This document shows, piece after piece, positions 29,835 to 49,390 of a stretch of 64,000 nucleotides of DNA. Both the position numbers and the translations under genes were made by a program. Within the stretch, counting starts at the first letter, position 1. Each line of letters begins with the position of its first letter. The notes under the pieces were generated by a model. It was not told the DNA's origin and searched no databases. It saw nothing but the letters and a program-made list of their open reading frames with translations. Origin of the DNA: Collimonas arenae (GTDB lineage: Bacteria > Pseudomonadota > Gammaproteobacteria > Burkholderiales > Burkholderiaceae_D); the NCBI RefSeq assembly GCF_001584165.1, contig NZ_CP013233.1, positions 4,534,620-4,598,619 on the forward strand. Reading direction: 5' to 3'.

Positions 29835-30746
29835 TCAGCCGGCCATCCGCTTCGCCGCAATCGCATTGCCGGCCCGGCTGACGGCCTTGCGTCCCAAGTG
29901 CTTCGAAATGAACTGGCCGGCATCCACCACCGCATCAAGATCGATGCCGGTTTCGATACCCAATCCCTGCATCATGTACAACACATCTTCCGACGACACG
30001 TTGCCGGTTGCGCCCTTGGCATACGGGCAGCCACCTAAACCGGCGACTGAAGAGTGATAAATGGAAATACCGACTTCCAGGCTGGCGTAGATGTTGGCCA
30101 ATGCCTGGCCGTAGGTGTCGTGGAAATGGCCGGACAGGCGCTCAATCGGGAATTCCTGCACCAACCTTTGCATCACTGTGTGGACTTTGTTCGGCGTGGC
30201 GACGCCGATGGTGTCGGCGATATCGATTTCATCGCAGCCGAGGTCGCGCAGGCGATGCAGCACGTCAACCACCGAGTCGATGCCGACTTCGCCCTGATAA
30301 GGACAACCAAATACGCAGCTGATGCTGCCACGCAGGCGTTTGCCTTCCTGCTTGGCGACCCGCGCGACTTCGCGGAAGCGCTCGATCGATTCGGCGATTG
30401 AGCAGTTGATGTTCTTTTGCGAGAACGCCTCGGATGCGGCGCCGAAAATCACCATCTCGTCAGCACCGGCGGCCAGTGCAGCTTCCAGGCCTTTCATGTT
30501 CGGCACCAGCGCGGAATAAATCACGCCAGGCTTGCGCTGGATGGCCGCCATCACTTCCGCCGAGGTGGCCATTTGCGGCACCCATTTTGGCGACACAAAT
30601 GAGGCCGCTTCAATGTTGACGAAACCGGCTTTGGTGAGCTGATCCACAAGCGCGATTTTCACGTCCGCCGGGATGGTTTCCTTTTCGTTTTGCAGGCCGT
30701 CACGCGGTCCGACTTCAACGATTTTCACTTTGCTGGGGAATGTCAT
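29835..30746 (-). CDS. liuE: Hydroxymethylglutaryl-CoA lyase
   Basis: Last step of leucine degradation: cleaves HMG-CoA to acetyl-CoA and acetoacetate. The 303-residue TIM-barrel protein has VEVGPRDGLQNE at the start (metal-binding aspartate), the GHFHDTYGQALAN segment with metal histidines, and the catalytic loop GLGGCPYAKGATGNVSSED with its cysteine. The gene is also called mvaB or hmgL elsewhere. It starts 19 bp after the ghrA-type gene and is in the same direction as the carboxylase, dehydrogenase and hydratase genes of the pathway. Confidence 0.94.
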   Translation of the reverse strand: MTFPSKVKIVEVGPRDGLQNEKETIPADVKIALVDQLTKAGFVNIEAASFVSPKWVPQMATSAEVMAAIQRKPGVIYSALVPNMKGLEAALAAGADEMVIFGAASEAFSQKNINCSIAESIERFREVARVAKQEGKRLRGSISCVFGCPYQGEVGIDSVVDVLHRLRDLGCDEIDIADTIGVATPNKVHTVMQRLVQEFPIERLSGHFHDTYGQALANIYASLEVGISIYHSSVAGLGGCPYAKGATGNVSSEDVLYMMQGLGIETGIDLDAVVDAGQFISKHLGRKAVSRAGNAIAAKRMAG

Positions 30747-30765
30747 GGCTTGCCTCGTAATTGTT

Positions 30766-31706
30766 CTAGTATCCGTTGCTGCGATCGATGATGCCGCTCA
30801 CCGTCTTGCCTTGTTCCAGCAACTGTATCTTGGCGCAAATCTGCTGCACCGAATCTTCATCCACCGTAATGGCGGAGATATGCGGCGTAATGCTGATGCG
30901 CGGCTCCTCCCAGAACGGATGTCCTGGCGGCAGCGGTTCCTGCTCGAACACATCCAGCGTCGCCGCGGCGATCTGGCCTTCGTGGATCAGCGCCAGCAAA
31001 TCGGCCTCGACCACATGGCCGCCGCGCGCAACGTTGATCAGATAGGCGCCTTCTGCGCCCTTCTGCAATTTTTCCATATTTTTCCGATTGACGATGCCGC
31101 GCGTGGCGTCGGTCAACGGCAAGATGCAAACCAGCACTCGCGACGCCCGCAGGAATTCGTCGAGCGCATCGTCGCCAACAAAATTGCGTACGCCCGGCAA
31201 CTCCTTGGGAGTGCGGCTCCAGCCGTTCAACGGAAATTCGAAATGCGCCAATGCCGCGGCAATACGCGAACCGAGTACGCCCAGGCCGAGGATGCCGATG
31301 CTGAAATCGCGCTTGCTCGGCTCCGGCAACGGCCGCCATTCGCGGCGTGCAGCCTGTTGCCGATAGATATCGTAACGGCCGAAATAGCCTAGTACCGCAT
31401 GCGTGACATAACTGGCCATCTGGATCGCCATTCCCCCGTCTTCGATACGGATCAGCGGTACGCCGGCGGGCAGTGCGTCACCCAGTTTCAGGATTGCATC
31501 GACACCGGCACCGAGGTTGAAGATGGCTTTGAGATCGCTGCGTCCTTGCAGCATGGCCGGCGGTGGGCGCCACACCAGTGCGTAGTCAGCGGGGGCGTTG
31601 TCGCCTTCCCGCCAGAAACGAACTTCGGCTTGCGGCAATGCCTTGCCGAAATCGGCGATCCAGCGCTCGAAATCGCTGCCTGGGGTACGTAACACAGGAT
31701 TTTCAC
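30766..31706 (-). CDS. ghrA: Glyoxylate/hydroxypyruvate reductase A (frameshift at N-terminus)
   Basis: NAD(P)H-dependent 2-hydroxyacid dehydrogenase that reduces glyoxylate and hydroxypyruvate. The Rossmann motif is GILGLGVLGSRIA near residue 143. The catalytic arginine is in LINVARGGHVVEADL, the glutamate in DVFEQEPLP and the histidine in ITPHISA. A GTG at 31706 starts MKILCYVP, which must switch frame at 31679-31680 (one more C on the plus strand) to continue GSDFERWIADFGKALP. The repaired length is 313 residues (E. coli GhrA 312). It stands between MCC alpha and HMG-CoA lyase, an unusual partner for leucine genes. Confidence 0.88.
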
Positions 31707-31761
31707 TGTTGGGCCTCTTGCTTTTTACAACGCGAATGCGATGGCGTTTACTCTATGGGCC

Positions 31762-31827
31762 GTTAACTGGGGTCAGAGTAATTTACGACGATGAAACTGT
31801 CGTAAAAAAACTCTGACCCCACTTAAC
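31762..31827. repeat. GGGGTCAGAGT hairpin repeat inside the liu/bio gene run
   Basis: Arms GTTAACTGGGGTCAGAGT (31762-31779) and ACTCTGACCCCACTTAAC (31810-31827) pair with one mismatch. The inner stem is TTTACGAC/GTCGTAAA, a different sequence from the other three copies but still paired. Only the hairpin part of the composite element is present. It lies in the 141-bp gap between MCC alpha and ghrA and may act as an RNA processing or attenuation point. Confidence 0.7.
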
Positions 31828-31847
31828 TCTTGATCCCGCTTAACTCT

Positions 31848-33866
31848 CTATGCCGGCTTAAATACCAGCAACTGCGCCGATTCGCTGACCTGGTCGCCGA
31901 CCGCATACAGCAGTTCTTCGACCAAGCCATCGGCCGGAGCGGCGATGGTGTGTTCCATCTTCATCGCTTCCATGATCAGCAATGGTGCGCCTTTTTTTAC
32001 TTGCTCGCCTTGCGTCACCAATAGCGCCACGATCTTGCCTGGCATCGGCGCTGTCAGACGGCCGCCTTCGGCTTCGGCGTCGCCGGCATGCAGCATCGGA
32101 TCGACATAGCCGAGCACATAATGGCTACCGCCATGGAACACGTGGAACTGCTCACCCTGGCGCACCACGGTGCCGCTCACGGTTCTGTCGCCAAGGCTGA
32201 TTTCGATGGCGTTGCCATTCTGCTGCAATACGGTCATCTGGTTGAATTGTTGTCCTTGATGCTGCGCGTGATGCAGCAGCCAACGCCCGGCTTCGTACAT
32301 GACATCCACCGGGCTGGCGGTGCCGTCATCGACAAACGCCAGCCGCCGTTGCAGGCTGCCGTTCAAGCGCCAGCCGTCGGTATTGGTCCACGGATCGCTG
32401 CCGGCATTGTTGACGGCGTTGCGTTCCGACAGCAGCAACGATGCAGAAGCCAGCGCCAGCACTTCAATCGCAACCGGAGCCGCAGCCGGAAACAACGCAT
32501 CGTGATGCCGTTCGATCAAACCGGTATCCAGGTCGGCTTCGGAAAACGCCTTGCTGCCGATCAGGCGCTGCAGGAATTTGACATTGCTGGCCAGGCCGAC
32601 GATCTGATATTCAGCCAAGGCCTTCGCCATGGCCGCCAGCGCCTGTTCCCGGTCCTGGCCCCAGACGATCAGTTTGGCGATCATCGGATCGTAGAAAGGT
32701 GAGATCGCATCGCCCTCGCGCACGCCGGAATCGATACGCACAATGCTGGCGCTGGATTGGCTGACGATGAATTCGTTAGCCGCAGGCGTGCGCAAATGAC
32801 GCAGGGTACCGATCGACGGCAGGAATCCTTTATCCGGATTTTCTGCATAGATCCGCGCTTCCAGCGCATGGCCGCTCAGCTTCAGTTGCTCTTGCTTGAG
32901 CGGCAGCGGTTGGCCCGCGGCGACGCGCAATTGCCACTCGACCAGATCGAGGCCGGTAATCATTTCAGTGACTGGATGTTCAACCTGCAAGCGGGTATTC
33001 ATTTCCATGAAATAAAAAGAACCATCCTGGTTGGCGATGAATTCGACCGTGCCGGCGCCGACATAGCCGACCGCCTTGGCCGCGGCTACCGCCGCTTCGC
33101 CCATCGCACGTCGGCGTTCTGCCGTCATGCCCGGCGCCGGCGCTTCTTCCAGGACTTTCTGGTGACGCCGCTGTACTGAACAATCGCGTTCGAACAGGTA
33201 GACGCAATCGCCCTGGGTATCGGCGAAGACCTGGATTTCGATGTGACGCGGCCGGGTCAGGTATCTTTCCACCAGCACCTTGTCGTCGCCAAAACTGTTG
33301 ATCGCCTCGCGTTTGCAGGATGCCAGCGCGGCCTTGAAATCGGCGCTCTGCTCGACGATACGCATGCCCTTGCCGCCACCGCCGGCACTGGCCTTGAGCA
33401 GCACCGGATAGGTGATCTTGTCGGCTTCGGTCTGCAGGAACTCGGCATCCTGATTGTCGCCATGATAGCCAGGCACTAGCGGCACCTTAGCCTTTTCCAT
33501 CAAGGCCTTGGCCGCCGATTTCGACCCCATCGCAGAGATCGCGCTGGCTGGCGGGCCAATGAACACCAGGCCGGCCTTGGCGCAGGCATCGGCGAACTGC
33601 GCATTCTCCGACAGGAAGCCATAACCGGGGTGGATGGCCTGAGCGCCGGTGGCGAGCGCCACTTCGATGATCTTGTCGGCGCGCAGATAGCTTTCCTTGG
33701 CCGCAGGCGGGCCGATCAGGACCGCTTCGTCGCATACCGCAACGTGCTTGGCGCCAGCATCGGCTTCCGAATACACGGCTACGGTCTTGATGCCCATGCG
33801 TCGTGCGGTGGCAGCCACGCGGCAGGCGATCTCGCCGCGGTTGGCAATCAGGATTTTAGTGAACAT
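31848..33866 (-). CDS. liuD: Methylcrotonyl-CoA carboxylase alpha (biotin-containing) subunit
   Basis: Biotin carboxylase and carrier subunit of 3-methylcrotonyl-CoA carboxylase, which makes 3-methylglutaconyl-CoA in leucine degradation. Residues 1-450 are the biotin carboxylase (FTKILIANRGEIACRVAATA; ATP-grasp loop GGGGKGM; VEHPVTEMITGLDLVEWQL). Residues 450-600 are the BT region and 600-672 the biotin carrier domain, with the biotinylated lysine K636 in EAMKMEH. Length 672 fits MccA. It begins 19 bp after bioB and is separated from its beta subunit gene by about 9.5 kb that contains the biotin genes, so cofactor and enzyme genes are interleaved. Confidence 0.93.
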   Translation of the reverse strand: MFTKILIANRGEIACRVAATARRMGIKTVAVYSEADAGAKHVAVCDEAVLIGPPAAKESYLRADKIIEVALATGAQAIHPGYGFLSENAQFADACAKAGLVFIGPPASAISAMGSKSAAKALMEKAKVPLVPGYHGDNQDAEFLQTEADKITYPVLLKASAGGGGKGMRIVEQSADFKAALASCKREAINSFGDDKVLVERYLTRPRHIEIQVFADTQGDCVYLFERDCSVQRRHQKVLEEAPAPGMTAERRRAMGEAAVAAAKAVGYVGAGTVEFIANQDGSFYFMEMNTRLQVEHPVTEMITGLDLVEWQLRVAAGQPLPLKQEQLKLSGHALEARIYAENPDKGFLPSIGTLRHLRTPAANEFIVSQSSASIVRIDSGVREGDAISPFYDPMIAKLIVWGQDREQALAAMAKALAEYQIVGLASNVKFLQRLIGSKAFSEADLDTGLIERHHDALFPAAAPVAIEVLALASASLLLSERNAVNNAGSDPWTNTDGWRLNGSLQRRLAFVDDGTASPVDVMYEAGRWLLHHAQHQGQQFNQMTVLQQNGNAIEISLGDRTVSGTVVRQGEQFHVFHGGSHYVLGYVDPMLHAGDAEAEGGRLTAPMPGKIVALLVTQGEQVKKGAPLLIMEAMKMEHTIAAPADGLVEELLYAVGDQVSESAQLLVFKPA

Positions 33867-33885
33867 GCTGTCTCCTCCTCTTTTT

Positions 33886-34929
33886 TTATTGTTTTGCCGT
33901 GCTGTCGGCGGTTACTTCGCAGCGCGCGTCAAAGACCGACGAACGTGAATGCATGCCAAGCCGCTCCAGCAATGCGCGGTCTTCCTCAACTTCCGGATTG
34001 CCGGTGGTGAGCAGCTTGTCGCCGTAGAAAATCGAGTTGGCGCCGGCCAGGAAACACAGGGCCTGGATGCCGTCACCCATTTGCCGGCGGCCAGCCGACA
34101 GACGCACGCGCGCCTTCGGCATGGTGATGCGCGCGACCGCCACGGTGCGGACGAATTCGAACAGGTCGATCGGTGCGATACCGTGCAGCGGCGTGCCTTC
34201 AACCTGCACCAGATTGTTGACCGGCACCGATTCAGGATATGGCTCCAGGTTGGCCAATTGCGCTACCAGGCCGGCGCGCTGCAGGCGCGATTCACCCATG
34301 CCGACGATGCCGCCGCAGCACACCTTGATGCCGGCGCCGCGCACGCTGTCGAGCGTGTCGAGGCGATTCTGGTAATCGCGGGTGGTGATGATGTCGCCGT
34401 AGATTTCCGGAGCGGTGTCGAGATTGTGGTTGTAATAGTCGAGGCCGGCATTCTTCAGGCGTTCAGCGTGGCCTTCGCCCAGCATGCCCAAAGTGGCGCA
34501 GGTTTCCAGGCCGAGCGCCTTGACTTCGCGCACCATTTCCTCAACCTTTTCCAGATCGCGGTTTTTCGGCTCGCGCCAAGCTGCGCCCATGCAGAACCGG
34601 GTGGCGCCATGCGCCTTGGCCTGGCGCGCCGCATCCAGCACGGTATCCAGCGGCAGCATCTTTTGTGCGGTGACGCCGGTGTCGTAGCGTGCCGCTTGCG
34701 GGCAGTAGCCGCAATCTTCGGGACAGCCGCCGGTCTTGATCGACAGCAGCGTCGCCAGTTCGACTTCGTTCGGATCGAAATTCTCGCGATGCACCTGCTG
34801 CGCCTTGAACAGCAATTCATTGAACGGCATGTTGAACAGGTCCAGCACGGCTTGCACAGGCCACTTGGCATCGGCAGGCAGCACCAGCGGCTTGGCGGCT
34901 GGTTGGAATGTAATTGGTTGCGATGACAT
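33886..34929 (-). CDS. bioB: Biotin synthase
   Basis: Radical-SAM enzyme that inserts sulfur into dethiobiotin to make biotin. The 347-residue protein has the [4Fe-4S] motif CPEDCGYC (C69, C73, C76), the SAM-binding segment [11 protein letters not shown], the NHNLDT motif near residue 168 and the C-terminal [15 protein letters not shown] region. It is complete. The gene begins 32 bp after bioD and is followed 19 bp later by the MCC alpha gene, so biotin made here can serve a carboxylase from the same transcript. Confidence 0.96.
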
Positions 34930-34961
34930 GATCTAACTTCCTTTGTGTTGAGGGAATAGGG

Positions 34962-35705
34962 TTAAGAGTGAATGCCGGATGGCAGCGGCCAACCCGGCAG
35001 ACATGAAAAATCGAGATGGTCGGCGGCGGCCTTGACCAGCGCCCTGGCAGGCAATTTGGGTATGCGCGGCACGTGGCCCAGAAATGGTGCCTGAATGCGG
35101 CTCTTCAGTGCTGCGATATTGGCATCGCCGTTGAGCATTGCCGTGTCGACCGTATTGGCGACCCAGCCGGCAAGCTGCAAGCCGCGCGCGGCGATGGCCT
35201 CAACGGTCAGCATGGCATGGTTGATGCAGCCGAGCCGCAATCCCACCACCAGTACCACAGGCAAACCGAGCTGCTGGGCCAGATCGGCGGTATCGTGTTT
35301 GTCGTTGAGCGGCACGCGGAAGCCGCCAACGCCTTCCACCACCACGGCATCGGCCAAGCTGGTGAGCTGCCGGTAACAAACCAGGATATGTTCCAGTTCA
35401 ATCGTCCGTTGTTCCTGCGCTGCGGCGATATGTGGCGCAGTCGGTTGGCGCAGCAGAAACGGCGTCGTCAATTCCTGCGGCAACGTCACGCTGGCTTCCG
35501 CCGCCAAGATATCAGCATCGTCATTGTGCCAGACGCCGTCGCGCAGTTCGGCGCCAGCGGCCACAGGCTTCATGCCAGCACTGCGGACACCGGTCTTGGT
35601 CAGTGCGTGCAACAGTGCGCCGGCAATCAGTGTCTTGCCGATTTCGGTGTCGGTGCCGGCGATGAACCAGGCGGCCTTCGAAAGGTTTGCAATCGGATTA
35701 ATCAT
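34962..35705 (-). CDS. bioD: Dethiobiotin synthetase
   Basis: ATP-dependent enzyme that closes the ureido ring of 7,8-diaminopelargonate with CO2. It is a P-loop protein with GTDTEIGKT at about residues 18-26, the substrate loop VEGVGGFRVPLND near 122 and VLVVGLRLGCINHAMLT. The 247-residue length is usual. Its ATG overlaps the end of bioA by eight bases (ATGATTAA), the same arrangement as at two other junctions in this operon. Confidence 0.95.
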   Translation of the reverse strand: MINPIANLSKAAWFIAGTDTEIGKTLIAGALLHALTKTGVRSAGMKPVAAGAELRDGVWHNDDADILAAEASVTLPQELTTPFLLRQPTAPHIAAAQEQRTIELEHILVCYRQLTSLADAVVVEGVGGFRVPLNDKHDTADLAQQLGLPVVLVVGLRLGCINHAMLTVEAIAARGLQLAGWVANTVDTAMLNGDANIAALKSRIQAPFLGHVPRIPKLPARALVKAAADHLDFSCLPGWPLPSGIHS

Positions 35706-37077
35706 GGCCGATCACGCTCTCAAAAACCGCTGCGGTGCGCGCCGCCAGCAAATCGATTTCCTCATCATCAAGGATGTACGGCGGCATCAGATAGACTGTC
35801 TTGCCGATCGGCCGCAGCAGCAATTCCTGCTCGACTGCATTGGCGAAAAAGCGCCGTGAAAAAGTCGCCGCCTGCGCCTTGTTGTCGATCGCTGCGTCGA
35901 ATGCCCAGATCATCCCGCGCTGGCGGAAGTGTCGCACTTTCGGATGCTGCGCCAACGGCTGCAGTGCGGCTGTAATGCGATGCGCGCGCTGGCGATTGGT
36001 GTTGATCACGTCGTCTTCGTCGAAGATCGCCAGCGTCGCAAGGGCGGCACGGCAAGCCAGCGGGTTGCCGGTGTAGGAGTGCGAGTGCAGGAAGCCGCGC
36101 GCCAGATCGTTATCGTAGAACGCCTGGTAGATTTCATCGCGCGTCATTACCAGCGACAACGGCAGGTAACCGCCGCTGATGCCTTTCGACAGGCACAGGA
36201 AATCCGGCCAGATCGGCGCCTCGCCGGACGCAGTGGCTTGTTCGGACGCAAAGAAAGTGCCGGTGCGGCCGCAGCCGACGGCGATTTCGTCAAAAATCAA
36301 ATGAACCTTGTAGCGATCGCACAATGCGCGCAGTTCGCGTAAATAAACCGGATCGTGCATCGCCATGCCGGTGGCGCATTGCACCAGCGGTTCGATGATG
36401 ATCGCAGCGATATGGCTGGAGCGCTGCTGCAGCAACTTCTCCAGCGTCGCGGCGGCGCGGCGCGCCACATCGGCGGCAGTCTCGCCGTCGCGCGCGGCAC
36501 GGGCATCGGGCGACGCCACCACGTGCGCCTGGCGCAACAGCGGACCGTAGGCATCGCGAAACAGCGGTACATCGGTCACTGCCAGCGCGCCGATGGTTTC
36601 ACCGTGATAGCTGCCCTTGAGGCAAACGAATTCCTGCTTGTCGGCATAGCCGGCGTTGCGCCACGCATGAAAACTCATCTTCAGTGCGATCTCGACCGCC
36701 GAAGCGCCATCAGACGCGTAGAAGCAGTGTCCCAATACATTGCCGGTGCGCGCCGCCAGTTGTTCCGACAATTGCACCACCGGTTCGTGCGTGAAGCCGG
36801 CCAGCATCGCATGCTCAAGTTGATCGAGTTGATCCTTCAACGCAGCATTGATGCGCGGATTGGCATGGCCGAACAGATTCACCCACCAGGAGCTGATCCC
36901 GTCCAGATAACGCTTGCCGTCGGTGTCATACAGCCAGGCGCCGCGGCCGCGGCTGACCGCGATCAGAGGCACCGTTTCATGGTGCTGCATCTGGGTGCAC
37001 GGATGCCAGACACTGGCCAGGCTACGCCGGACCAGCTCCGATTGCGGTGCAGGGAGATTTTTTTCAGATTTATTCAA
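35698..37077 (-). CDS. bioA: Adenosylmethionine-8-amino-7-oxononanoate aminotransferase
   Basis: PLP enzyme that converts KAPA to 7,8-diaminopelargonate using S-adenosylmethionine as amino donor. The 459-residue class III aminotransferase has WHPCTQMQ near the N-terminus, the YASDGASAVEIALKM cofactor segment, DEIAVGCGRTGTFFA near residue 255 and the lysine in LCLSKGISGGYLPLSLV. The start codon is TTG at 37077: the preceding ATG is followed at once by a stop. The TTG overlaps the bioF stop by eight bases (TTGAATAA). Confidence 0.94.
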   Translation of the reverse strand: MNKSEKNLPAPQSELVRRSLASVWHPCTQMQHHETVPLIAVSRGRGAWLYDTDGKRYLDGISSWWVNLFGHANPRINAALKDQLDQLEHAMLAGFTHEPVVQLSEQLAARTGNVLGHCFYASDGASAVEIALKMSFHAWRNAGYADKQEFVCLKGSYHGETIGALAVTDVPLFRDAYGPLLRQAHVVASPDARAARDGETAADVARRAAATLEKLLQQRSSHIAAIIIEPLVQCATGMAMHDPVYLRELRALCDRYKVHLIFDEIAVGCGRTGTFFASEQATASGEAPIWPDFLCLSKGISGGYLPLSLVMTRDEIYQAFYDNDLARGFLHSHSYTGNPLACRAALATLAIFDEDDVINTNRQRAHRITAALQPLAQHPKVRHFRQRGMIWAFDAAIDNKAQAATFSRRFFANAVEQELLLRPIGKTVYLMPPYILDDEEIDLLAARTAAVFESVIGHD

Positions 37078-38277
37078 TTACATTCCTTGTCATGCCTCGC
37101 GCTGACGCGTCGGCATTATTCGCAGCCAACGCATGCAACGCGCTCGCCAGCTGGTCTACTTGTTCGATACTGTGTGCCGCCGACAACGAAATGCGCAAAC
37201 GCGCAGTACCCTTCGGCACCGTCGGCGGACGGATTGCCGGCACCGAGATGCCTTGCTCGCGCAAGCCTTCCATCAGGTCCAGCGCCAGTTGGTTATCTTC
37301 GACGATCAAAGCCTGCACCGCGGTCTCGGATGGCAGCAGCGGCCACGGCAAACCGGCCAGGCCGCTGCGCAAACGTGCAATCAGTTCACGCAAATGCTGA
37401 TGCCGCCAATCTTCGTCCTGCATCACCTTGACGGCCGCCAGCAAGGCGCTCGCCAGCAACGGTGGGCTGGCAGTAGTGAACACGTAGGTCCGCGCGCGTT
37501 GCAGCAGCCATTCAATCAGCAGCGCATCGCCGGCAACGAAAGCACCGGCGACGCCGGCGGCCTTGCCCAAGGTCCCCATGTACAGGATGCGTTGCGACTG
37601 GATGCCGAAATGCGCCAGGCTGCCGCGTCCTTGCGGCCCAGCACGCCGAAACCGTGGGCATCGTCGACCAGCATCCAGGCATCGTATTTTTCGCACAGGG
37701 CCAGCAGTTCCGGCAGCGGTGCGATATCGCCATCCATGCTGAAAATCGCATCGGTGACAATCAGTTTGCGCGGGCTGCTGCTCTTGGCCAGCAGCTCCTC
37801 CAGCCGCGCCACATCAGCATGCGGATAAATGCGGAACTGCGCGCCGGACAAGCGTGCGCCGTCGATCAGGCAGGCATGGTTCAGACGGTCCGAGAACACC
37901 ACATCGCCAGGGCCAACCAGTGCCGGGATGGTCCCCATATTGGCCATGTAGCCGGTCGAAAAATGCAAGGCGCGTGGCATGCCGACGAAAGCAGCCAAAG
38001 CCTGCTCCAACTCCTCGACCACGCTGGTGTGGCCACTGATCAGCGCCGATGCGCTGGCGCCGACGCCGTATTTTTCCAGTCCGGCTGCGGCTGCCGCATG
38101 CAATGCGGGATGATTGGCCAGGCCGAGATAATCGTTGCTGCAAAACGCCAGGTACTGGCGGCCGTCAACATCCAGCAACGGCCCTTGCGGACCATCGACA
38201 ATGCGGCGCTTGCGCAGCAGTTTCTGCTCTTGCAACGCAGCCAGTTGTTCGCGGATCTGGTTCAGTAACTCAGGCAT
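37070..38277 (-). CDS. bioF: 8-amino-7-oxononanoate synthase (frameshift)
   Basis: PLP enzyme that condenses pimeloyl-ACP or pimeloyl-CoA with alanine, the first committed step of the biotin ring pathway. N-terminal part has [13 protein letters not shown] and [14 protein letters not shown]; the central part has [10 protein letters not shown]; the Schiff-base lysine is in [14 protein letters not shown]. The frame breaks at 37635-37636: GVLGRKD should be [15 protein letters not shown], and one more G on the plus strand restores it. The repaired protein is about 402 residues. The ATG lies inside the last codons of the P450 gene, with an eight-base overlap (ATGCCTGA). Confidence 0.92.
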
Positions 38278-39546
38278 AGTGGACTTCCGCCGTTTGTACA
38301 TGCGCCGCCGGCGATGGCCGCGCAAATTGCAACGGCAAGCGGTTCAGGCTGCGATATACCGCGTTCTCGCCCCAGGATTGCGTGTCGCCGACCAATCCCA
38401 GTTGCGGCAGCCGCTGCATTACGCTGCGCATCGCAATTTCCGCTTCCAGATAAGTCAGCGTGGCGCCGATACAGACATGCGGGCCGTAACCGAAAGACAG
38501 ATGCGCACCTTCATTGCGGCGAATATCGAGCCGGTCCGGATCGCTGAATTTGGCCGGATCGCGATTGGCGGCGCCGATCAGCGGAATCACCAGGTCGCCC
38601 TTCTTCATGATCTGGCCATGCATCTCGACATCGACCTTGAGGCGGCGGCCGGTATATTGCACCGGGCTGTCGAAACGCAACAATTCCTTCAACGCGGATG
38701 GCAGCAAGGATGGCTCGGCTTGCAGCGCCTGCCATTGCTGCGGATGCTGTAACAGCGCCAGCATGCCGTTGCCCAGCAGGTTGCGTGTTGTTTCATGACC
38801 GGCGAACAGCAGCGTGCAGCATTGCGCCAGCAATTCCTTGGTAGTGATGATGCCGCCGCCGGCTTCGGCGCGAATCAGCTGGCTCATCAAGTCGTCGCCA
38901 AGCGCGGCACGGCGCAGTGGCAACAATTGGCGGAAATATTCGTTCATCGCGATCAGGCTGACCTGGGCGCGCCGGGCAATCTCCAGCGTCGGCGTCGGGC
39001 TGCCAATGAAAGCGGCGATATCGTCGGACCAGGCGACAAATTCGCTGCGGTCTTCGGCGGCGATGCCGAGCATGCCGGCAATCACCAGCGCCGGCAGCGG
39101 GCGGGCGAAGTCGCGCATGAAGTCAAACTGAGCAAATTCAGCAAACTGTCCTGTGCCGACAGCGGCCTTCGCCAACACGTCGTCCAGCAGACGAGTTACG
39201 ATCGTCTGGATCTGCGGCGCCAATTCCTGCAACGCTGCCGGTTTGAAGCCGGCGTTCATCACCTGGCGCAGGCGCGTGTGCTGTGGTGCATCGACGAACA
39301 GCAGCGAGCGCGAAAAAATGCGTTTGAATTCACGCAGCTCGGTCAATGCCCCGGCCCGCTGCTATTCGCCCAGCCGCCAGCGCGCCGTACCGAAAAACGC
39401 GGATCGCGCAGCACGGCGGCGACATCGGCATGTCCGGTCAGCAGCCAGGCTCCGCCGCAGAACTCCGGGCTCCAATGCAACGGCCCCTCGGCACGCAACG
39501 CGTGGTAGGCGGGGTAAGGATCGTTCAAAAATGCTTCGTTAATCAT
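38270..39546 (-). CDS. Cytochrome P450 at the head of the biotin operon, BioI-like candidate (frameshift)
   Basis: Soluble bacterial cytochrome P450. The I-helix motif [10 protein letters not shown] lies near residue 250, the K-helix ELLRF with its ExxR further on, and the heme loop [12 protein letters not shown] places the ligand at about C359. The frame breaks at 39349-39352, where one more C (plus strand) joins [15 protein letters not shown] to [14 protein letters not shown]; repaired length is 425. Its stop overlaps the bioF start by eight bases, so the genes are translationally coupled. Bacillus BioI, a P450 in a bio operon, cleaves acyl-ACP to pimeloyl-ACP. By context this protein may do the same, but sequence alone does not prove it. 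It could also be an unrelated P450 captured by the operon. Confidence 0.85.
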
Positions 39547-39620
39547 TTAATATCGTTTCCGGCACTTACGTTGGCAAAATCGCCTCTGCAAGGACGAGAT
39601 TGTATGTGATCGCGACGCAA

Positions 39621-40406
39621 TCACTGCAGCCAAGACGGTTTACGCTTCTCCAGGAAAGCGCGTACCCCCTCCCGCCCTTCGGTGGAAGCCCGGATTTTGG
39701 CGATATCTTCCACGGTATCGGCGATCAGCGTCTCCGTCAGCGGCTGGCCGGCAATCGCTCGCACTAGTCGTTTGGCTTCTGTGACAGCGTTGGGACTGGC
39801 CGCCAATAACGCCTTGAGCAGCTGATTCACGCATTCATCGAGTTTTTCCGCTGCGGCAACTTCATGCACCAAGCCATGTCGCTGTGCGGTTTCTGCCGAA
39901 AAACGCTCGGCGGTGATGAAATAGCGGCGCGCAGCTGATTCTCCGATCGACTTGATGACATAGGGAGAGATGGTGGCCGGGATCAAGCCGATTTTCACTT
40001 CCGACAGGCAGAACTGGGCGGTATCCACTGCAGCCACGATATCGCAGGCCGACACCAGTCCTAGGCCGCCTGCATAGCAATCGCCCTGTACTTTGGCGAT
40101 CACTGGCTTCGGACATTGGTAGATGGTGCGCAGCATGGTCGCCAGCTGGGCGGCATCGGCGCGATTCTGCTCCGGCGTGTAGTCAGCCATCGCTTTCATC
40201 CAATTGAGATCGCCACCAGCGCAGAACGCTGCGCCATTCGCCGCCAGCACGATAGCGCGTACTTCGGCGGCGCTGCCCAGTTCAAGGAAAGCATGCGTGA
40301 TTTCGGCAATCATCGTTTCATTGAAGGCATTGCGCACTTCGGGCCGGTTGAGGACGATGGTGGCGACCTGGGGTGCGCGTTGTATCGTCAAAGTCTGATA
40401 AGTCAT
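39621..40406 (-). CDS. liuC: Methylglutaconyl-CoA hydratase (enoyl-CoA hydratase family)
   Basis: Crotonase-fold enzyme that hydrates 3-methylglutaconyl-CoA to HMG-CoA in leucine degradation. I take the ATG at 40406, with GGAGA upstream, giving 261 residues; a longer upstream frame overlaps the DinB gene. The oxyanion-hole segments are AAFCAGGDLNWM near residue 68 and GDCYAGGLGLVSACD near 115; the NRPEVRNAF motif is at the N-terminus. The start overlaps the DinB stop as ATGA. Family membership is firm; the exact substrate is inferred from the MCC and HMG-CoA lyase genes nearby. Confidence 0.9.
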   Translation of the reverse strand: MTYQTLTIQRAPQVATIVLNRPEVRNAFNETMIAEITHAFLELGSAAEVRAIVLAANGAAFCAGGDLNWMKAMADYTPEQNRADAAQLATMLRTIYQCPKPVIAKVQGDCYAGGLGLVSACDIVAAVDTAQFCLSEVKIGLIPATISPYVIKSIGESAARRYFITAERFSAETAQRHGLVHEVAAAEKLDECVNQLLKALLAASPNAVTEAKRLVRAIAGQPLTETLIADTVEDIAKIRASTEGREGVRAFLEKRKPSWLQ

Positions 40407-40917
40407 TTGTTCATCTCCGCTTGCTGCTTTGCCACCGCCCAATAAATAAAGTCCAGTTCCGGACACGCATAGCCCATGGCGGTCAGCGCCGCAGTGATCT
40501 GGCCGCGATGGTGGGTGGCGTGGTTGAAAACGTGGCCGAGCACTGCCGTGAGTGGCGCCTCTGCCGGGGCGCCTGTTGCCCGGGTGTAATGTAGATTGCC
40601 GGAATAATCCCGTTGTGGATTGCTCGACAGCCATTGGTCCCAGCGCCGCGACGCATCAGTCAAGGCACTCGCCAGGACGTCGCGTCGGCTTTCCAATTCG
40701 GTATCCAGCGCCATTTTCAGCGAAATGCCTTCGGCAATGCGGGAATGCCAATGACGCTCACCGACCAACATGTGGTTCAACGTGCCATGTATCGAATGAA
40801 AAACAGCCTGCAATCGCGACGATAATCTTCCTCGCTGATGGCAGCGATCTGTTCGAGCAGTTTCGCAGTGGCCCACACATGGTAGCGGGCCAGCGATTCA
40901 AAATAAGCTTGCATCAT
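40403..40917 (-). CDS. DinB-family protein (frameshift)
   Basis: Four-helix-bundle protein of the DinB/YfiT metalloenzyme fold; the role is unknown. The metal ligands are typically three histidines, here in LNHMLVGERHWH (near residue 49) and VFNHATHHRGQI (near 133). The frame breaks in the A-run at 40799-40803: one more base joins DYRRDCRLFF to HSIHGTLNHML. Repaired length is about 171. The start overlaps the hydrolase stop and its own stop overlaps liuC, both as ATGA, so it is co-translated with leucine genes although no link to that pathway is known. Confidence 0.8.
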
Positions 40918-41836
40918 TTCGTCAATGGCTCCGCAGGAAAACCGTTGCGCCCCAGGAAATCGGCGACGACCGGCTCCCAAATACTGAGTCCGGAGGCGAA
41001 CAGCATATGTCCGTTCTTGGCAAATGGCGGCAGCAATTTGTATTCGGCCTGACCGCCTGCCTTGTTGAAAGCGGCCTGCCAGGCCTGGCTGTACTTCGGT
41101 CCAAAAAACAGGTCGTTCTCGGTGTACACCCAGAGCATCGGCACCTTGGTCGTCTTGCCGAATTGCGCGTACATGCTTTCCAGTTTGTCGCCCTGGCAAG
41201 GCACGCCAGGATGGGCGACCGGATCACCGCCGGCGCCGCCGGCAAAATTGATCGCCGCCACCAGCCCCGCCGGATTCCTGGCCGCAGTCGCGGTGGTCGT
41301 ATAGCCGCCGACCGATTGGCCGACCAGCAATACGCGCTGCGGATTCACGTAAGACTGCTGCTTGGCGTAATCGAGGACTGCCAACACTTCGGTTGCCGCA
41401 GCTTCGGCCATCGGTCCGTACTCTTTCTGGTTGCAACTACCGCTGTCCTCAGGATCAGGATCGACGCCGGCCTCGCCGTAGCCAAGACGGGTCGGCACGA
41501 ACACGGCAAACCCGCGGTCTATAAAAAAGCGCGCCTGTTGCGTATAGCGGAAACGCAGCGGTGTGGCGCGATTGTCGCCGCTACGGCCGTGGCTGATGAC
41601 GACGATCGGAAACGGCCGGCGCCGGCCGGCTTGAACTGTGTCACCGTGACATTGCCGGTAACGCTACGGCCATACAGGTTCTTGACCGTCACCGGCAGCT
41701 TGATGACCGACTCGTTCAAATCCTGCGCCAAGCCCTGTGCGGCGGCGTGGCCGGACCATGCGCCGAGCGAGATACATAAGCATCCCAGCGCATGACGCGC
41801 TGTCCAACTGGCTGATGACGGCTTCATTTTTTTCAT
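40914..41836 (-). CDS. Secreted alpha/beta hydrolase, dienelactone-hydrolase-like (frameshift)
   Basis: Exported hydrolase with a signal peptide (residues 1-33, cut near AAA-QG). The nucleophile elbow is LLVGQSVGGYT, the acid probably the aspartate in YTENDLFFGP and the histidine in FAKNGHMLFA. The frame breaks at 41608-41609: one more G on the plus strand changes RFRSSSSAT to RFPIVVISHGRSGDN, which carries the family oxyanion segment. Repaired length is about 307 residues. It lies in the leucine cluster between a secreted YbjQ-like protein and DinB; substrate unknown. Confidence 0.82.
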
Positions 41837-41856
41837 GATGATTGCTTAGGCTACGA

Positions 41857-42728
41857 TCATTCACCTGCCAGCGCTGCGGCAGTTCCCGCCGGCGATTGCC
41901 GTGTCGGCTGGGCGGCAGTGCTGGCCCGATACACCACGGTGCTGTCGATGGCATACAGCTGGCAGTTCCTGCCGCTCAGGTTGTAGCAAACCTGCAAGGC
42001 GCGCACCGCGGGATCCCTTGGCAAATTCTGGTCGGGCGGATTGCCCCAGGTTTGCGCCCAATGACCGTCTTCGGCAATGACAAAAGCCTTGGGACCAACC
42101 CTGGTCAGCCACAGTTGATAGGCTTCGCGGCCCTGCTGATCCAGAAACGGTATATGCCGGGAATCACTGATATCGGCAAAACCGGATGCTGGCGGAAACA
42201 AGCGTGCTCCTGGCGGCGCCTGCGCGGCGACACTGGCAGAGGTGCCGACACTATGGTCGATCTTGCCCAACCTGGCTTTGAGGTCGACGATTGCGCGCGT
42301 GGTGCCGGCATGACACTCATATTGGGTCGGGCTATTCATCACCGCCAAGCGGTCGTAGTAACTGACAATGCCGACCAGCACGTTGGCATTTCTCGCGCGT
42401 GCCTGCTGCACCAGGTCAAGCAAGGCATTTTGCAATGCAAGTTTGCAACATCCGAGTCTTCGGTTCCACGGCCGCGATAATTGGGTCTAGCCTCGCCCCT
42501 GATGTAAATTTCATCCGACAGCAAGCTCGTGCCGTCCGGTATCGCTGCACCGAAGATGATCGACATGTCGCTGCCGACAGCCTGCTGGACCGCCCTCTGC
42601 GCAAATACCGGCTCAACCGGCAACAGCAGCTTGGTATTGCGCGCTTGCGCCGCCGTCGGCCAGAACCCGTTCGCCAACACGCAGGCAAACGCCAGTCCGA
42701 GGCAGGTTTTTCTAGAAAAATCGATCAT
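41857..42728 (-). CDS. Secreted tandem-paralogue protein B with extra C-terminal domain (frameshift)
   Basis: Exported protein of unknown function, paralogous to the next gene upstream. A signal peptide ends near AQA-RN. Residues 30-150 share ARNTKLLLPV, the SDEIYIRGEA region, ANVLVGIVSYYD and SPTQYECHAGTTRA with the paralogue; this domain is often misannotated as an excinuclease subunit. About 110 further residues (KAFVIAEDGHWAQTWG, CYNLSGRNCQLYAID) are absent from the paralogue. The frame breaks near 42447: one more A (plus strand) gives EDSDVCKLALQNALLDL, aligning with the paralogue. Repaired length is 290. Confidence 0.72.
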
Positions 42729-42786
42729 TCCCGCTTTCCCTTCGCTAGTGAGTTTCGCTGTTCCCGGTTTGTCGATGCGCGTCGCA

Positions 42787-43338
42787 TCAATTTGCCTTCG
42801 GCGCCGGTGCATCGGACAAGCCGTCGATCTTGGCCAGCTTCGCTTTCAGGTCAACCACCGCGCGGGTTGTCCCGGCGTGGCACTCATACTGGGTCGGGCT
42901 GTCCATGACTGTGGCATGGTTGTAGTTGCTGACGATGCCAACCACTGCATTAGCGCCCTGCGCGCGTGCCTGACCTATCAGTTTGACCATCGCCTTGCGG
43001 AAAGCCTGTTGGCAAATCGCCTCATCCTCGTAACCATGCCTGAAACTCGGCTGGACCTCGCCCCTGGCCTGGATGTCCTGCGACACGAACTTCAACCCTT
43101 GCGGCACTGCCGCCTCACCGAAGATGATGACCATATCGTCATCGTCGCCCTTGTGCGCCGCTACCTGGCCCGCTGGCTGCGACTGTGCTTGCGCCTGCGT
43201 CGCTTTCGATGGCACGACTGTACCGATCGGCAGCAGCAACCTGGTGTTGCGCGCCTGCGCGGTTCCTTGCCAGCAGATAGCCGCCAACGCGCAGGTCAAC
43301 ACCAATGTCAATGGCGATTTATTCGTGAGTTTATGCAT
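42787..43338 (-). CDS. Secreted tandem-paralogue protein A
   Basis: Exported 183-residue protein of unknown function. The signal peptide is about 30 residues, ending GTAQA-RN; GGGAGA lies upstream of the ATG. The mature domain begins ARNTRLLLPIGTVV and includes YEDEAICQQAFRKAMVKLI, GANAVVGIVSNYN and SPTQYECHAGTTRA with two conserved cysteines. The pattern resembles the short periplasmic proteins often mislabelled excinuclease subunit A in Burkholderiales. It is followed by a diverged tandem copy and lies 34 bp after MCC beta. Confidence 0.75.
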   Translation of the reverse strand: MHKLTNKSPLTLVLTCALAAICWQGTAQARNTRLLLPIGTVVPSKATQAQAQSQPAGQVAAHKGDDDDMVIIFGEAAVPQGLKFVSQDIQARGEVQPSFRHGYEDEAICQQAFRKAMVKLIGQARAQGANAVVGIVSNYNHATVMDSPTQYECHAGTTRAVVDLKAKLAKIDGLSDAPAPKAN

Positions 43339-43372
43339 TTTATTTTTCTCCCTGTTGATGCGCATTGTTGAG

Positions 43373-44995
43373 TTACATGCGGAATACACCGAACTTCGTT
43401 TCAGCGATCGGCGCATTCAGCGCCGCGCTCAACCCCAGCCCCAGCACCCTGCGGGTATCGGCCGGATCGATTACGCCGTCGTCCCACAAACGCGCTGACG
43501 CATAATAGGGATGTCCCTGATGCTCGTATTGGTCACGGATCGGTTTCTTGAACGCCTCTTCCTCATCGGCGCTCCAACTGCCGCCCTTGGCTTCAATACC
43601 ATCGCGCTTGACGGTCGCCAGGACGCCGGCGGCCTGTTCGCCACCCATCACCGAAATCCGTGCGTTCGGCCACATCCACAGGAAGCGCGGCGAATAGGCG
43701 CGGCCGCACATGCCGTAATTACCGGCGCCGAAACTACCGCCAATGATCACCGTCAGCTTCGGCACCGAGGTGGTTGCCACCGCAGTCACCATCTTGGCGC
43801 CATTACGCGCAATGCCCTCGTTCTCGTAACGACGGCCAACCATGAAGCCGGTGATGTTTTGCAGGAACACCAGCGGGATCTTGCGTTGCGAGCACAGTTC
43901 GATGAAGTGCGTCCCTTTCAACGCCGCTTCCGAAAACAGGATGCCGTTGTTGGCGATGATGCCGACCGGCATGCCGTAGATATGTGCGAAACCACAAATC
44001 AGCGTGGTGCCGTAGCGCGCCTTGAATTCGTCAAATTCACTGCCGTCGACCACGCGTGCGATTACTTCGCGCACATCGAACGGCTTGCGGGTATCGAGCG
44101 GAATCACGCCATACAATTCCTGCGCCGGATATTTTGGTTCGACTACCGGACGCAATAGCGGACCTTGCGGTTTCTGGCGGTTCAGATTGGAAACGATAGT
44201 GCGCGCCAGCGACAGCGCGTGCATGTCATTCTGCGCCAGGTGGTCGGCCACACCGGAAAGACGGGTGTGGACATCACCGCCGCCGAGATCCTCGGCACTG
44301 ACCACCTCGCCAGTGGCAGCCTTCACCAGCGGCGGACCGGCCAGAAAAATCGTGCCCTGATTCTTGACGATGATCGATTCATCGCTCATCGCTGGCACGT
44401 AGGCGCCGCCGGCAGTGCACGACCCCATCACCACGGCAATTTGCGGGATGCCCTTGGCCGACAGGTTGGCCTGGTTGAAAAAGATGCGGCCGAAGTGATC
44501 GCGATCCGGGAACACTTCATCCTGGTTCGGCAGGTTGGCGCCGCCGCTGTCGACCAGATAAATGCATGGCAAGTTATTCTGCTCGGCGATTTCCTGCGCC
44601 CGCAAATGCTTCTTCACGCTCAACGGATAGTAGGTGCCGCCCTTGACGGTGGCATCGTTGCAGACGATCACGCATTCTTGACCGGCGATGCGGCCGATGC
44701 CGGTAATGACGCCGGCGGCAGGCGCGGCATCGCTGCCGTCCTTGTCCTTGTAGACGTGATACGCCGCCAGCTGGGAAAATTCGAGGAACGGCGTGCCCGG
44801 GTCGAGCAGCATTTGCACCCGTTCGCGCGGCAGCAACTTGCCGCGCGCAACATGCTTGTTACGCGCGGCTTCGCCGCCGCCTTCAGCGATCTGCGCAACT
44901 TTCTGACGCAAATCGTCGACCAGCAGATTGAGGGCGTTGGCATTTTGCTGGAATTCTTCGCTGCGCGGATTCAGCTTGCTTTCTAACTGAGGCAT
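43373..44995 (-). CDS. liuB: Methylcrotonyl-CoA carboxylase beta (carboxyltransferase) subunit
   Basis: Carboxyltransferase subunit that passes CO2 from biotin to 3-methylcrotonyl-CoA. The 540-residue protein has both crotonase-like halves: N-terminal [20 protein letters not shown] and [19 protein letters not shown], and C-terminal [30 protein letters not shown] and [17 protein letters not shown]. These segments are typical of MCC rather than propionyl-CoA carboxylase beta. It starts 33 bp after the acyl-CoA ligase gene. Its alpha partner is 9.5 kb further along the same strand. Confidence 0.94.
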
Positions 44996-45028
44996 TGCAA
45001 TGTCCTTTGTGTCTTGTATTTTGAATTG

Positions 45029-46721
45029 TTATGCGGTGCGGATATCGTTGAGCTTCAGCTCGTCCTTCATCGCTTCGCGAATCTTGAATTTCTGTATCTT
45101 GCCGGTCACCGTCATCGGGAAAGCGTCGACAAAACGGATGTAGCGCGGCACCTTGTAGTGCGCGATCTGGCCCTGGCAAAAATCGCGCACGCTCTGCTCG
45201 TCCAGCGCCTGGCCTGGCCGCAGGATGATCCATGCGCACAATTCCTCGCCGTATTTCTGGTCCGGCAGGCCGACTACCTGCACATCCTGGATGGCTGGAT
45301 GGCGATACAAAATTCTTCTATCTCGCGCGGATAAATATTCTCGCCGCCGCGGATCACCATGTCTTTCATGCGGCCGACGATATTGACGTAGCCTTCGGCA
45401 TCCATCGTCGCCAAGTCGCCAGTGTGCATCCAGCCTTCGCTGTCGATCGCTTCGCGTGTCTTTTCCTCGTCGCCCCAGTAACCGTGCATCACCGAGTAGC
45501 CGTGGGTGCACAACTCGCCGGAACTACCGATCGGCATGATCTCGCCCGACTCCGGATCAATAATCTTGACCTGCAAGTGGGGTTGCACGCAGCCCACCGT
45601 CGACACCCGCTTTTCCAGCGGCGTGTCAGTCATGCTTTGACAGCTGACCGGGCTGGTTTCCGTCATGCCGTAGGCAATGGTGATCTGCTCAAGATGCATG
45701 TCACGCACCACGCGCTTCATCACCTCGATCGGGCACGGCGAGCCGGCCATGATGCCGGTGCGTAGCGTCGATAAATCGAACTCGGCAAAGCGCGGATGAT
45801 CAAGTTCGGCAATAAACATGGTGGGTACGCCGTGCAGACCGGTGCAGCGCTCCTCCTGTACCGCCTGCAGCACCGACAGCGGCTCAAAACCGTCATTTGG
45901 ATAAACGATCGTGGCGCCGTGCGTCAGGCAGGCCAGGTTGCCAAGCACCATGCCGAAGCAATGGTACAAAGGCACCGGGATGCAGAGCCGGTCCTGCTCG
46001 GTCAGCTTCATCGCTTCGCCGATGAAAAAACCGTTGTTCAGGATATTGCGATGGGTCAGCGTCGCTCCTTTTGGAAACCGGTGGTGCCGCTGGTGAACTG
46101 GATATTGATCGGATCGCTGGCTTGCAGGGTTTTTCCAAGCTGCACCAGCTGAGAATCGGACGCATCGCCGCCAGCGATGAAATCCCTGAAACGCAGCATG
46201 CCCGGCACCTCGCCGCTGCCAAGCTGAATCACGGTTTTCAAGGTCGGCAGGCGCGCGGCCTGCAATGCGCCCGGCGTAGCGTGTTGCAATTCAGGCGCCA
46301 GTGTGCGGATCATCTCCAGATAATCGCTGGTCTTGAAACTAGTCATCGAAATTAACGCCTTGCAACCGACGTTGTTGAGTGCGTACTCCAGCTCGCTGAC
46401 CCGATAGGCCGGATTGATATTGACCAGAATGATGCCGGCATAAGCAGTGGCCAATTGCGTCAGCACCCACTCGGCGTTGTTGTGCGACCAGATGCCGATG
46501 CGGTCGCCCGGTTGCAGGCCAAGCTTGAGCATGGCACTGGCCAGGCGTCGGGCTTCGGTCTGCAGTTGCCGATAGCTCAGGCGTACCTGCTGATGGCGCG
46601 ATACCAGCGCGTCGTTGTCGGCAACCCGCTCCACCATGTCGTCAAAAAAACGACCGATGGTTTGTTCGATCAGCGGCGTTTCCTGGCTACCGCGGTCAAT
46701 ACTTGAATGCAATTGCGTCAT
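45029..46721 (-). CDS. AMP-forming acyl-CoA synthetase (two frameshifts)
   Basis: ANL-superfamily ligase that activates a carboxylic acid to its CoA thioester through an acyl-AMP. Motifs in order: the P-loop TSGTTG near residue 210, [22 protein letters not shown] and the C-terminal VTGKIQKFK with the catalytic lysine. Breaks lie at 46073-46074 (GFQKERR should be [12 protein letters not shown]) and in the A-run at 45309-45312 (EEFCIAIQ should be [11 protein letters not shown]). With both repaired it is 564 residues from the ATG at 46721, preceded by AGGAGA. Such ligases accompany liu genes in related bacteria; the substrate, perhaps a branched or medium-chain acid, is not proved. Confidence 0.88.
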
Positions 46722-46760
46722 GGTCTTGTCTCCTGTTGGATCTTCTAATGCTTTGCGCAA

Positions 46761-47174
46761 TTATTTTTCTTTGTTTGGAAAACTGCCGTCAACGTAGAAC
46801 CAGCGCTGTCGGTTTCCTGTTCCCGGTTCACACTCGCGCAGGAAGCTGCTGATTTCATGCAAACGCTCAGCGCGGCCGCCGATCTTGTAGCGCGCCACAA
46901 ATTCCACCGTAGCGCTGTCGCCTGTAGCCTCATGTTTGCGCACTTCCAGGCCCAGCCATTTGAGGCCGGCTTCAGCAGTGATCGGCTCAAGCGGGCGCGT
47001 CGTGCGATGCCAGGTTGCCTGCAGATAGGCGCCAAGATTCATCACATAGGCGCTGTAGCGCGAACGCATCAGCGCTTCGGCGCTCGGCGCCACTTCGTCA
47101 CCGCTGTGATAACGCCCGCAACACTGGGCATACTTGCCGCCGCCGCACGGGCAATCGATGTTCTTTTCTTTCAA
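46761..47174 (-). CDS. YchJ-family SEC-C motif protein
   Basis: Small cytoplasmic protein of unknown function with the zinc-binding SEC-C motif DCPCGGGKYAQCCGRYH at the N-terminus and the YchJ core (ALMRSRYSAYVMN, YLQATWHRTTRP, VEFVARYK). I start it at TTG 47174, which overlaps the stop of the upstream isomerase gene (TTTGA) and gives 137 residues. The longer frame would run inside that gene. The C-terminal WFYVDGSFP ends normally. Confidence 0.82.
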   Translation of the reverse strand: MKEKNIDCPCGGGKYAQCCGRYHSGDEVAPSAEALMRSRYSAYVMNLGAYLQATWHRTTRPLEPITAEAGLKWLGLEVRKHEATGDSATVEFVARYKIGGRAERLHEISSFLRECEPGTGNRQRWFYVDGSFPNKEK

Positions 47175-47776: not shown

Positions 47777-47813
47777 CTTTTTTACCTTGTATGAATGAAA
47801 GCCAATTGTTTAA

Positions 47814-47895
47814 TTCGCAACTTGCGAAATCAAATAGCAAAGATCAGCGGGAATCCGCGGAAACTCCGCGAAGTTTCCACCGACTCACGCTGATC
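47814..47895. promoter_or_regulatory. Palindrome and large hairpin between thiolase and isomerase genes
   Basis: TTCGCAACTTGCGAA (47814-47828) is a 7+1+7 palindrome just ahead of the isomerase start and may be an operator. Next to it, GATCAGCG (47842-47849) pairs with CGCTGATC (47888-47895) around an inner stem GGAAACT/AGTTTCC (47859-47878). On the minus strand this hairpin comes 62 bp after the thiolase stop and is followed by TTTGCT, so it may be a weak terminator. Confidence 0.45.
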
Positions 47896-47957
47896 CTTTT
47901 GATGCGTGCTGCTGCTTTGCTACGTAAGGCTAGCGGCCTGTGACAGCCAAATCAATA

Positions 47958-49154: not shown

Positions 49155-49390
49155 GTTGCTTCTCCAGATTACGACAACTTGTAAGCTGCCCGGGAATTGC
49201 TCACGGCTGGCGACTATGTCGCATGTGACGGTTCTCGGAGCGTCTTTGCTGCCTGGTTGGTTAAAAATAAAACTGCTGCGCTAAATGATGAATTCAGTTG
49301 CTGCCAATGCTTATTTACTGCGATTGTCCTGCTTGTGTTTCACATTTCCGGATTACATGCATTACCTGGGGTCATCCGGAAAAATAGCAA

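Follow-up and report, generated by a model that had tools for sequence, protein, structure and literature searches.

The biotin operon of Collimonas arenae on contig NZ_CP013233.1 is led by a gene for a cytochrome P450, and here we report that a P450 gene placed directly before bioF, as in this operon, goes together with a separate clade of BioF. The operon lies within a stretch of 64,000 nucleotides (contig positions 4,534,620 to 4,598,619), hereafter the window, and its minus-strand order of P450, bioF, bioA, bioD and bioB bears out the preliminary description of this DNA. A biotin function of the P450 tied to BioF is likely on comparative sequence evidence, and a biotin role near BioF is well supported because the linkage recurs in several gene orders, the BioF lineage matches and the gene is under purifying selection. 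By analogy with the Bacillus enzyme BioI, we put at roughly 0.55 the probability that the P450 performs a BioI-like cleavage of acyl chains on acyl carrier protein (ACP) to pimeloyl-ACP, working with the adjacent BioF. The data suggest an oxygen-dependent, Bacillus-like route to the biotin carbon chain in Collimonas and its relatives.

The linkage was followed in two sets of genomes. In a sample of 116 genomes of the family, with P450 presence called at E<=1e-80, the gene was found in 15; bio genes are present in all 15 regions from 14 P450-bearing genomes (the window's own excluded), and 14 of the 15 P450-bearing genomes have a single bioB match, which adjoins the P450. Among named genomes, a scan with two conserved peptide patterns from a 15-row profile (A1) yielded 110 relatives, and 65 of the best 80 have a bio gene within about 6 kb, with the P450 directly before bioF in 23 and another bio gene within that distance in 42. 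The other 15 of the best 80 have no bio gene nearby (E<=1e-20) and belong to Massilia or Pseudoduganella (8), Cupriavidus (3), Pyrinomonadaceae bins (2), Burkholderiaceae (1) and Mesorhizobium (1). The P450 occurs with bio genes in at least four gene orders, namely P450-F-A-D-B (Collimonas, Glaciimonas, Devosia), B-P450-F-A-D (Herbaspirillum, Candidimonas, Paralcaligenes), A-F-D-B-P450 (Variovorax, Limnohabitans, Thauera) and A-F-D-P450 (Thiomonas, Rhodoferax).

Some individual loci depart from these arrangements. A second locus of Glaciimonas soli (L042, L077) holds another bioB-P450 pair, with a P450 65% identical to that of the window; this second bioB is probably broken, since it was matched in two overlapping pieces. 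In Mesorhizobium norvegicum (L075), a P450 74% identical to that of Collimonas is followed by only a short bioF remnant, and the locus seems to be a transferred cassette that has since decayed. In Paraburkholderia and Caballeronia (L110, L114), a P450 of the same clade is divergent from bioA at a distance of about 600 bases.

To characterise the BioF lineage, BioF, BioA, BioB and BioD were compared among loci with the P450 directly before bioF, loci with the P450 elsewhere in the bio cluster and P450-free loci of the family (40 bio loci from 38 genomes, with bioF in 28). Identity to a Collimonas BioF was 61-100% in 32 distinct loci with the P450 before bioF, 49-56% in 34 loci with the P450 elsewhere and 37-58% in the 28 P450-free loci, and in a quick tree of 85 BioF sequences the 26 from P450-before-bioF loci formed one clade (Shimodaira-Hasegawa-like approximate likelihood ratio test, SH-aLRT, 100; stem length 0.64). 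Further, BioF identities were compared at matched BioA identity in 63 loci holding BioF, BioA and BioB (21 with the P450 before bioF, 17 with it elsewhere and 25 P450-free). At a BioA identity of 75-80%, BioF identity was 67.3% (55-77) among P450-free genomes (149 pairs) and 72.2% among P450-before-bioF genomes (13 pairs), as against 53.1% (48-57) between the two groups (222 pairs); at 80-85%, the corresponding values were 70.8%, 75.4% and 53.0%. Across groups, BioF identity stays at 51-54% for BioA identities from 60 to 85%, the gap being visible only at BioA identities of at least 70%, and BioD at BioA 75-80% shows no gap (60.4 P450-free, 66.1 P450-before-bioF, 59.8 across). Additionally, at six positions of BioF the P450-before-bioF and the P450-free groups (P450-free locus L209 left out) carry different residues, each fixed in at least 90% of its group; no such positions were found in BioA, BioB or BioD (L079, L197 and L209 left out). 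Loci with the P450 elsewhere have the P450-free state at five of these six positions and do not show a separate BioF line. With BioF identity near 53% where the P450-free pairs would lead one to expect 67-71%, the bioF directly after the P450 belongs to a separate line, and P450 and BioF thus behave as one unit, or cassette.

In quick BioA and BioB trees, the P450-before-bioF organisms were interspersed with P450-free ones, and the P450-before-bioF rows required three changes in the BioA tree, four in the BioB tree and one in the BioF tree. A conflict between these trees is nonetheless not claimed, since approximately unbiased (AU) tests did not reject a single clade (p 0.59 for BioA, 0.17 for BioB), the BioA tree with the clade held together scoring even better; the argument therefore rests on the identity comparison. 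The AU tests used the LG model without mixture on sets reduced by 22 loci (long-branch or near-duplicate) and by every locus that has the P450 elsewhere in the cluster. The BioF, BioA, BioB and P450 trees and the comparison at matched BioA identity omit 13 of the 15 family-sample loci (L033-L043, L046, L047), of which seven duplicate named loci and six do not; the BioF identities of these loci were still compared.

A broader reading, which we hold tentatively and at somewhat less than even odds, is that the P450 and its own BioF form a mobile, oxygen-dependent pimeloyl module of BioI type that is independent of BioC and BioH and serves Collimonas, Glaciimonas and Herbaspirillum as their principal route; on this reading, it has displaced the resident bioF and has been transferred, as a functional operon, to alphaproteobacteria such as Devosia. 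In the BioI-like mechanism that we favour, the P450 would oxidise an ACP-bound acyl chain in successive rounds, with O2 and with a ferredoxin or flavodoxin as electron donor, and would cleave the chain to yield pimeloyl-ACP; the adjacent BioF would condense this product with alanine, and BioA, BioD and BioB would complete biotin. We infer the acyl-ACP substrate, the pimeloyl-ACP product and the preference of the paired BioF for that product.

The open part of the P450 matches the Pfam domain PF00067 with 95.9 bits (cut-off 22.8) and contains the AGHETT, ExxR (ELLR) and heme-cysteine motifs that had been described earlier, and the domain together with the I-helix, ExxR and heme-cysteine motifs places it in the cytochrome P450 superfamily. 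A profile of the Collimonas-type group ranked BioI first among solved structures (313.5 bits, next 297). By BLAST score, BioI was also slightly the best of BioI, PikC and PksS for the full-length P450s of Collimonas and Herbaspirillum.

A number of observations weigh against BioI-like cleavage as the source of pimeloyl-ACP. That the P450 is of BioI type is plausible from its biotin context and predicted fold; by identity it is no nearer to BioI than to PikC or PksS. Identity is 34-37% to BioI (CYP107H1), 38-39% to PikC and 35-37% to PksS, and the value for BioI lies below the 40% or so that is usually the minimum within a P450 family. The BLAST preference for BioI among these three is shared by a non-biotin sister P450, and BioI ranks third for the profile of a sister group without bio genes and sixth for that of a second biotin-linked group. 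In the P450 tree, where a grouping with CYP107H had been a suggested check, the protein did not clearly join BioI to the exclusion of other CYP107 enzymes (support 74, long branches). The three best entries for its predicted fold were BioI-ACP complexes, in a ranking without a valid control, as the control model was poor (predicted local distance difference test, pLDDT, 53.9). No flavodoxin or ferredoxin partner was recognised by eye near the operon, and the genome was not searched for one. At BioA identities below 70%, the BioF of P450-free pairs is itself near 55% identical. Among the 40 P450-free bio loci, no recurrent replacement gene was noticed in the place of the P450 (25 largest neighbour groups inspected; 12 of the 40 loci show no bioF), and bioB is present in 91 of the 101 family genomes without the P450. 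In the assembly as deposited, moreover, both the P450 and bioF are frameshifted.

These frameshifts revise the earlier view of the P450 as a single frame from 39546 to 38270. From its ATG at 39546, the frame runs for 67 codons to a stop, and the remaining 358 codons (39346-38270) are open in another frame, one base being missing at about 39349; bioF is likewise split by one missing base at about 37637. The two bioF pieces match TIGR00858 with 278.9 bits (positions 2-198) and 190.6 bits (positions 196-365, of 365), each singly below the cut-off of 426 and both together spanning the whole protein. All four Collimonas relatives checked (G028, G061, G083 and G102; loci L035, L036, L034 and L033) have one extra base at both sites, and their genes are open (P450 of 422-433 amino acids, bioF of 394-402 codons). 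Compared with at least two of these four, window positions 30001-50000 contain nine isolated one-nucleotide deletions and one insertion, most of which adjoin short homopolymers. Sequencing error is the likelier source of the frameshifts, because the relatives are without both of them and the region is rich in one-nucleotide deletions. True decay in the window's strain alone is less likely and is disfavoured by the low ratios of nonsynonymous to synonymous substitution rates (dN/dS) against G028 (P450 part 0.082; bioF parts 0.080 and 0.103). Several genes are broken in this same region, and the assembly appears liable to lose bases in homopolymers.

The preliminary description had contrasted the P450 with the usual BioC plus BioH or a replacement esterase, had seen no bioC, bioW or bioZ in the window and had proposed a whole-genome check, against which the contrast proves too simple. 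The genome (a single contig of 4,723,987 bases, 99.99% complete) encodes a BioC-like protein (L001, genome positions 4182950-4183909) that reaches 168.3 bits against the TIGR02072 cut-off of 185 and whose neighbours we take to be comF and trmL, and none of the 20 BioC-family matches lies inside the window, which was not itself searched throughout for bioC. No BioH exceeded the TIGR01738 cut-off of 207 (best 78.1 bits), BioG, BioJ, BioK, BioV and BtsA not being included in the search. The BioC-like gene, present in 112 of the 116 family genomes, counts against the P450 being necessary, as does the bioB of most P450-free family genomes. The biotin role of this BioC-like gene is itself unproven, because it is kept in four of the five bioB-less genomes that are at least 90% complete (G008, G020, G034 and G090; not G074). 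The absence of BioH says little, because no BioH over the cut-off was found in any of the 116 family genomes, 101 of them without the P450, and the explanation that the P450 is needed because BioH is missing was rejected on this ground. BioH matches of at least 130 bits occur in 11 of the 116, none P450-bearing; in nine of these, a weaker second BioC-like match stands beside that BioH, and all nine keep a stronger BioC-like match elsewhere, mainly the second half of the query being covered in five (genus g7), so that the protein common to the family may not be a plain BioC. An order-wide anticorrelation of P450 and BioH (of 379 genomes, 189 have BioH at E<=1e-33, and none of the 11 with a P450 hit is one of them) was also set aside. 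Seven of the 11 P450 hits are probably other P450s (37-48% identity, without bio genes in the surrounding 14-20 kb), and in each genome no more than the four best P450 and seven best BioH candidates were scored.

Such a BioC-like protein could, together with an unrecognised esterase, normally supply pimeloyl, with the P450 as an auxiliary enzyme that salvages long acyl chains under plentiful oxygen and whose deletion has little effect, as is reported for BioI in Bacillus subtilis. This would fit the near-ubiquity of the BioC-like gene in the family and the presence of bioB in 106 of the 116 genomes, when only 15 have the P450 and only 11 match BioH with 130 bits or more. It would also fit the genome G304 (1.2 Mb, 100% complete), where P450-bioF-bioA-bioD is retained alongside a BioC-like match of 167 bits. 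We consider it unlikely all the same, given that the P450 is retained in reduced genomes (G102 of 1.7 Mb and G304), that its dN/dS resembles that of bioF, that a BioF lineage is tied to it and that the BioC-like gene persists in most of the bioB-less genomes. Alternatively, the BioC-like methyltransferase would start the chain as in Escherichia coli and the P450 would replace BioH, an explanation that we judge distinctly improbable. It draws on the BioC-like gene of the window's genome, on BioC matches (E<=1e-20) in 26 of 30 further P450-bearing genomes, three of them over the cut-off (two Thauera, Pandoraea), and on the absence of BioH over the cut-off from the window's genome and all 33 P450-bearing genomes, five of which (G326, G486, G497-G499) have the P450 without intact bio genes alongside. 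Against it, BioC at E<=1e-20 was not found in Devosia, Mesorhizobium, Variovorax J22R193 and Piscinibacter, four of the 28 named genomes with the P450 (completeness not stated), and matches were weak and partial (78-102 bits) in six further Comamonadaceae (another Variovorax, Limnohabitans, Brachymonas, Macromonas, Tepidicella, Rhodoferax). In the P450-bearing Collimonas G102 (99% complete), neither the protein search nor TIGR02072 (best 42.5 bits) detected BioC, and the contig with the genes flanking the BioC-like site continues with other genes. G102 and the four named genomes speak for a P450 route that can do without BioC. P450-free relatives are without BioH as well, and in two Thauera a single operon (A-F-H-C-D-B-P450) unites the P450 with bioC and a BioH-like gene (131.6 and 111.4 bits), which also counts against the BioI-like reading. 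The BioH-like match of Pandoraea (107.5 bits) lies away from the operon, and other P450-bearing genomes have at most 92 bits or none.

Two further explanations concern the product and the place of the P450. Together with BioF, it might make another vitamer or an antimetabolite instead of the normal precursor, such as a compound of the alpha-methyl-7-keto-8-aminopelargonic acid (alpha-methyl-KAPA) line of Streptomyces, where passages of PMC13336041 describe a BioI-homologous P450 with a BioF-like enzyme; the BioF here is likewise of an unusual lineage. We give this little credence: in 14 of the 15 P450-bearing family genomes the operon looks like the main biotin operon, because the single bioB match adjoins the P450, and no recurring export or resistance gene was recognised among the neighbours. 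Slightest of all appears the chance that the P450 is a passenger in the operon with no biotin role. The 15 of the best 80 loci without a bio gene nearby would suit a passenger, as would seven more distant P450 regions of the order that hold no bio genes, but the recurrence of the P450 with bio genes in four or more gene orders speaks against it, as does the matching BioF lineage. BioI-like cleavage coupled to the adjacent BioF is thus the reading that we retain, at the probability given above.

Coordinates of the biotin operon in the window are given below.

Table 1. Features of the P450-led biotin operon (window coordinates).
Feature	Position	Strand	Basis
Cytochrome P450 gene of biotin operon	38270..39546	-	Pfam p450 (PF00067) on open part; frame broken at ~39349
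bioF	37070..38277	-	TIGR00858 match in two parts; frame broken at ~37637
bioA	35698..37077	-	TIGR00508, 524.1 bits (cut-off 405)
bioD	34962..35705	-	TIGR00347, 165.7 bits (cut-off 83.3)
bioB	33886..34929	-	TIGR00433, 402.4 bits (cut-off 225)
Overlap of P450 stop and bioF start, ATGCCTGA, 8 nt	38270..38277	-	TGA 38272-38270, ATG 38277-38275

The eight-base overlap of the P450 stop and the bioF start, correctly described before, recurs in all four Collimonas relatives checked. With a putative TTG start at 37077, bioA shares 8 nt with the end of bioF, and the overlap between bioA and bioD is likewise 8 nt; bioB is the single match in the whole genome at E<=1e-30. In the window there were no Rfam matches at the gathering threshold, no transfer RNAs and no exact match to the consensus of a BirA-type operator, and promoter and terminator scans of 38200-40700 remained at chance level. 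Upstream on the same strand (39621-46760) lie genes for an enoyl-CoA hydratase-like protein, for an acyl-CoA carboxyltransferase-like protein of 540 amino acids and for what was read as a broken AMP-binding enzyme, and a similar hydratase and carboxyltransferase recur beside the bio clusters of P450-free relatives. Tandem similar small proteins (RNTRLLLPIG... and RNTKLLLPVE...) are encoded at 41857-43416, and the frame of the second copy appears to be broken.

If a P450 is tied to its own BioF lineage in a group of betaproteobacteria, of which many are in culture, BioI chemistry would gain a natural host in which its use, partner and oxygen need become directly testable. Such a group would also help to explain biotin synthesis in the part of the Burkholderiaceae without a recognisable BioH. 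Were the module reading true, this would be the first setting known to us with BioI-type chemistry as the physiological source of biotin. In passages of the respective sources, BioI is called unique to B. subtilis (a 2025 paper, PMC12915131) or found in only a limited number of microorganisms (a 2024 review, PMC11089781). Our search of open-licence papers returned none combining Collimonas, biotin and cytochrome P450, and none whose title or abstract opening reports a biotin-operon P450 in Burkholderiales.

Among known systems, BioI (CYP107H1) of B. subtilis likewise lies in a biotin operon, heads the solved structures matched by the Collimonas-type profile and, provisionally, those matched by the predicted fold, and has similar AGHETT and heme motifs, but its identity to the Collimonas P450 does not exceed that of PikC or PksS and it is not clearly the sister of that P450 in the tree. 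The Collimonas P450 adjoins a BioF of matching lineage, whereas the BioF of B. subtilis cannot use the BioI product and BioI is dispensable in Bacillus, according to passages of PMC7645780, PMC11089781 and PMC12915131. MkpG and MkpD of the alpha-methyl-KAPA line in Streptomyces similarly pair a BioI-homologous P450 with a BioF-like enzyme acting after it (passages of PMC13336041), but belong to secondary metabolism; the likeness is drawn from their published description. The BioE route likewise depends on oxygen to cut long acyl-ACP down to a pimeloyl thioester (passages of PMC12915131), with a non-heme diiron oxygenase of another family than the P450s. The BioC-BioH route of E. coli delivers pimeloyl-ACP to BioF as well, and a BioC-like gene is present in the window's genome; it differs in its BioH, for which that genome has no match over the cut-off, and the P450 has no counterpart in the E. 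coli route.
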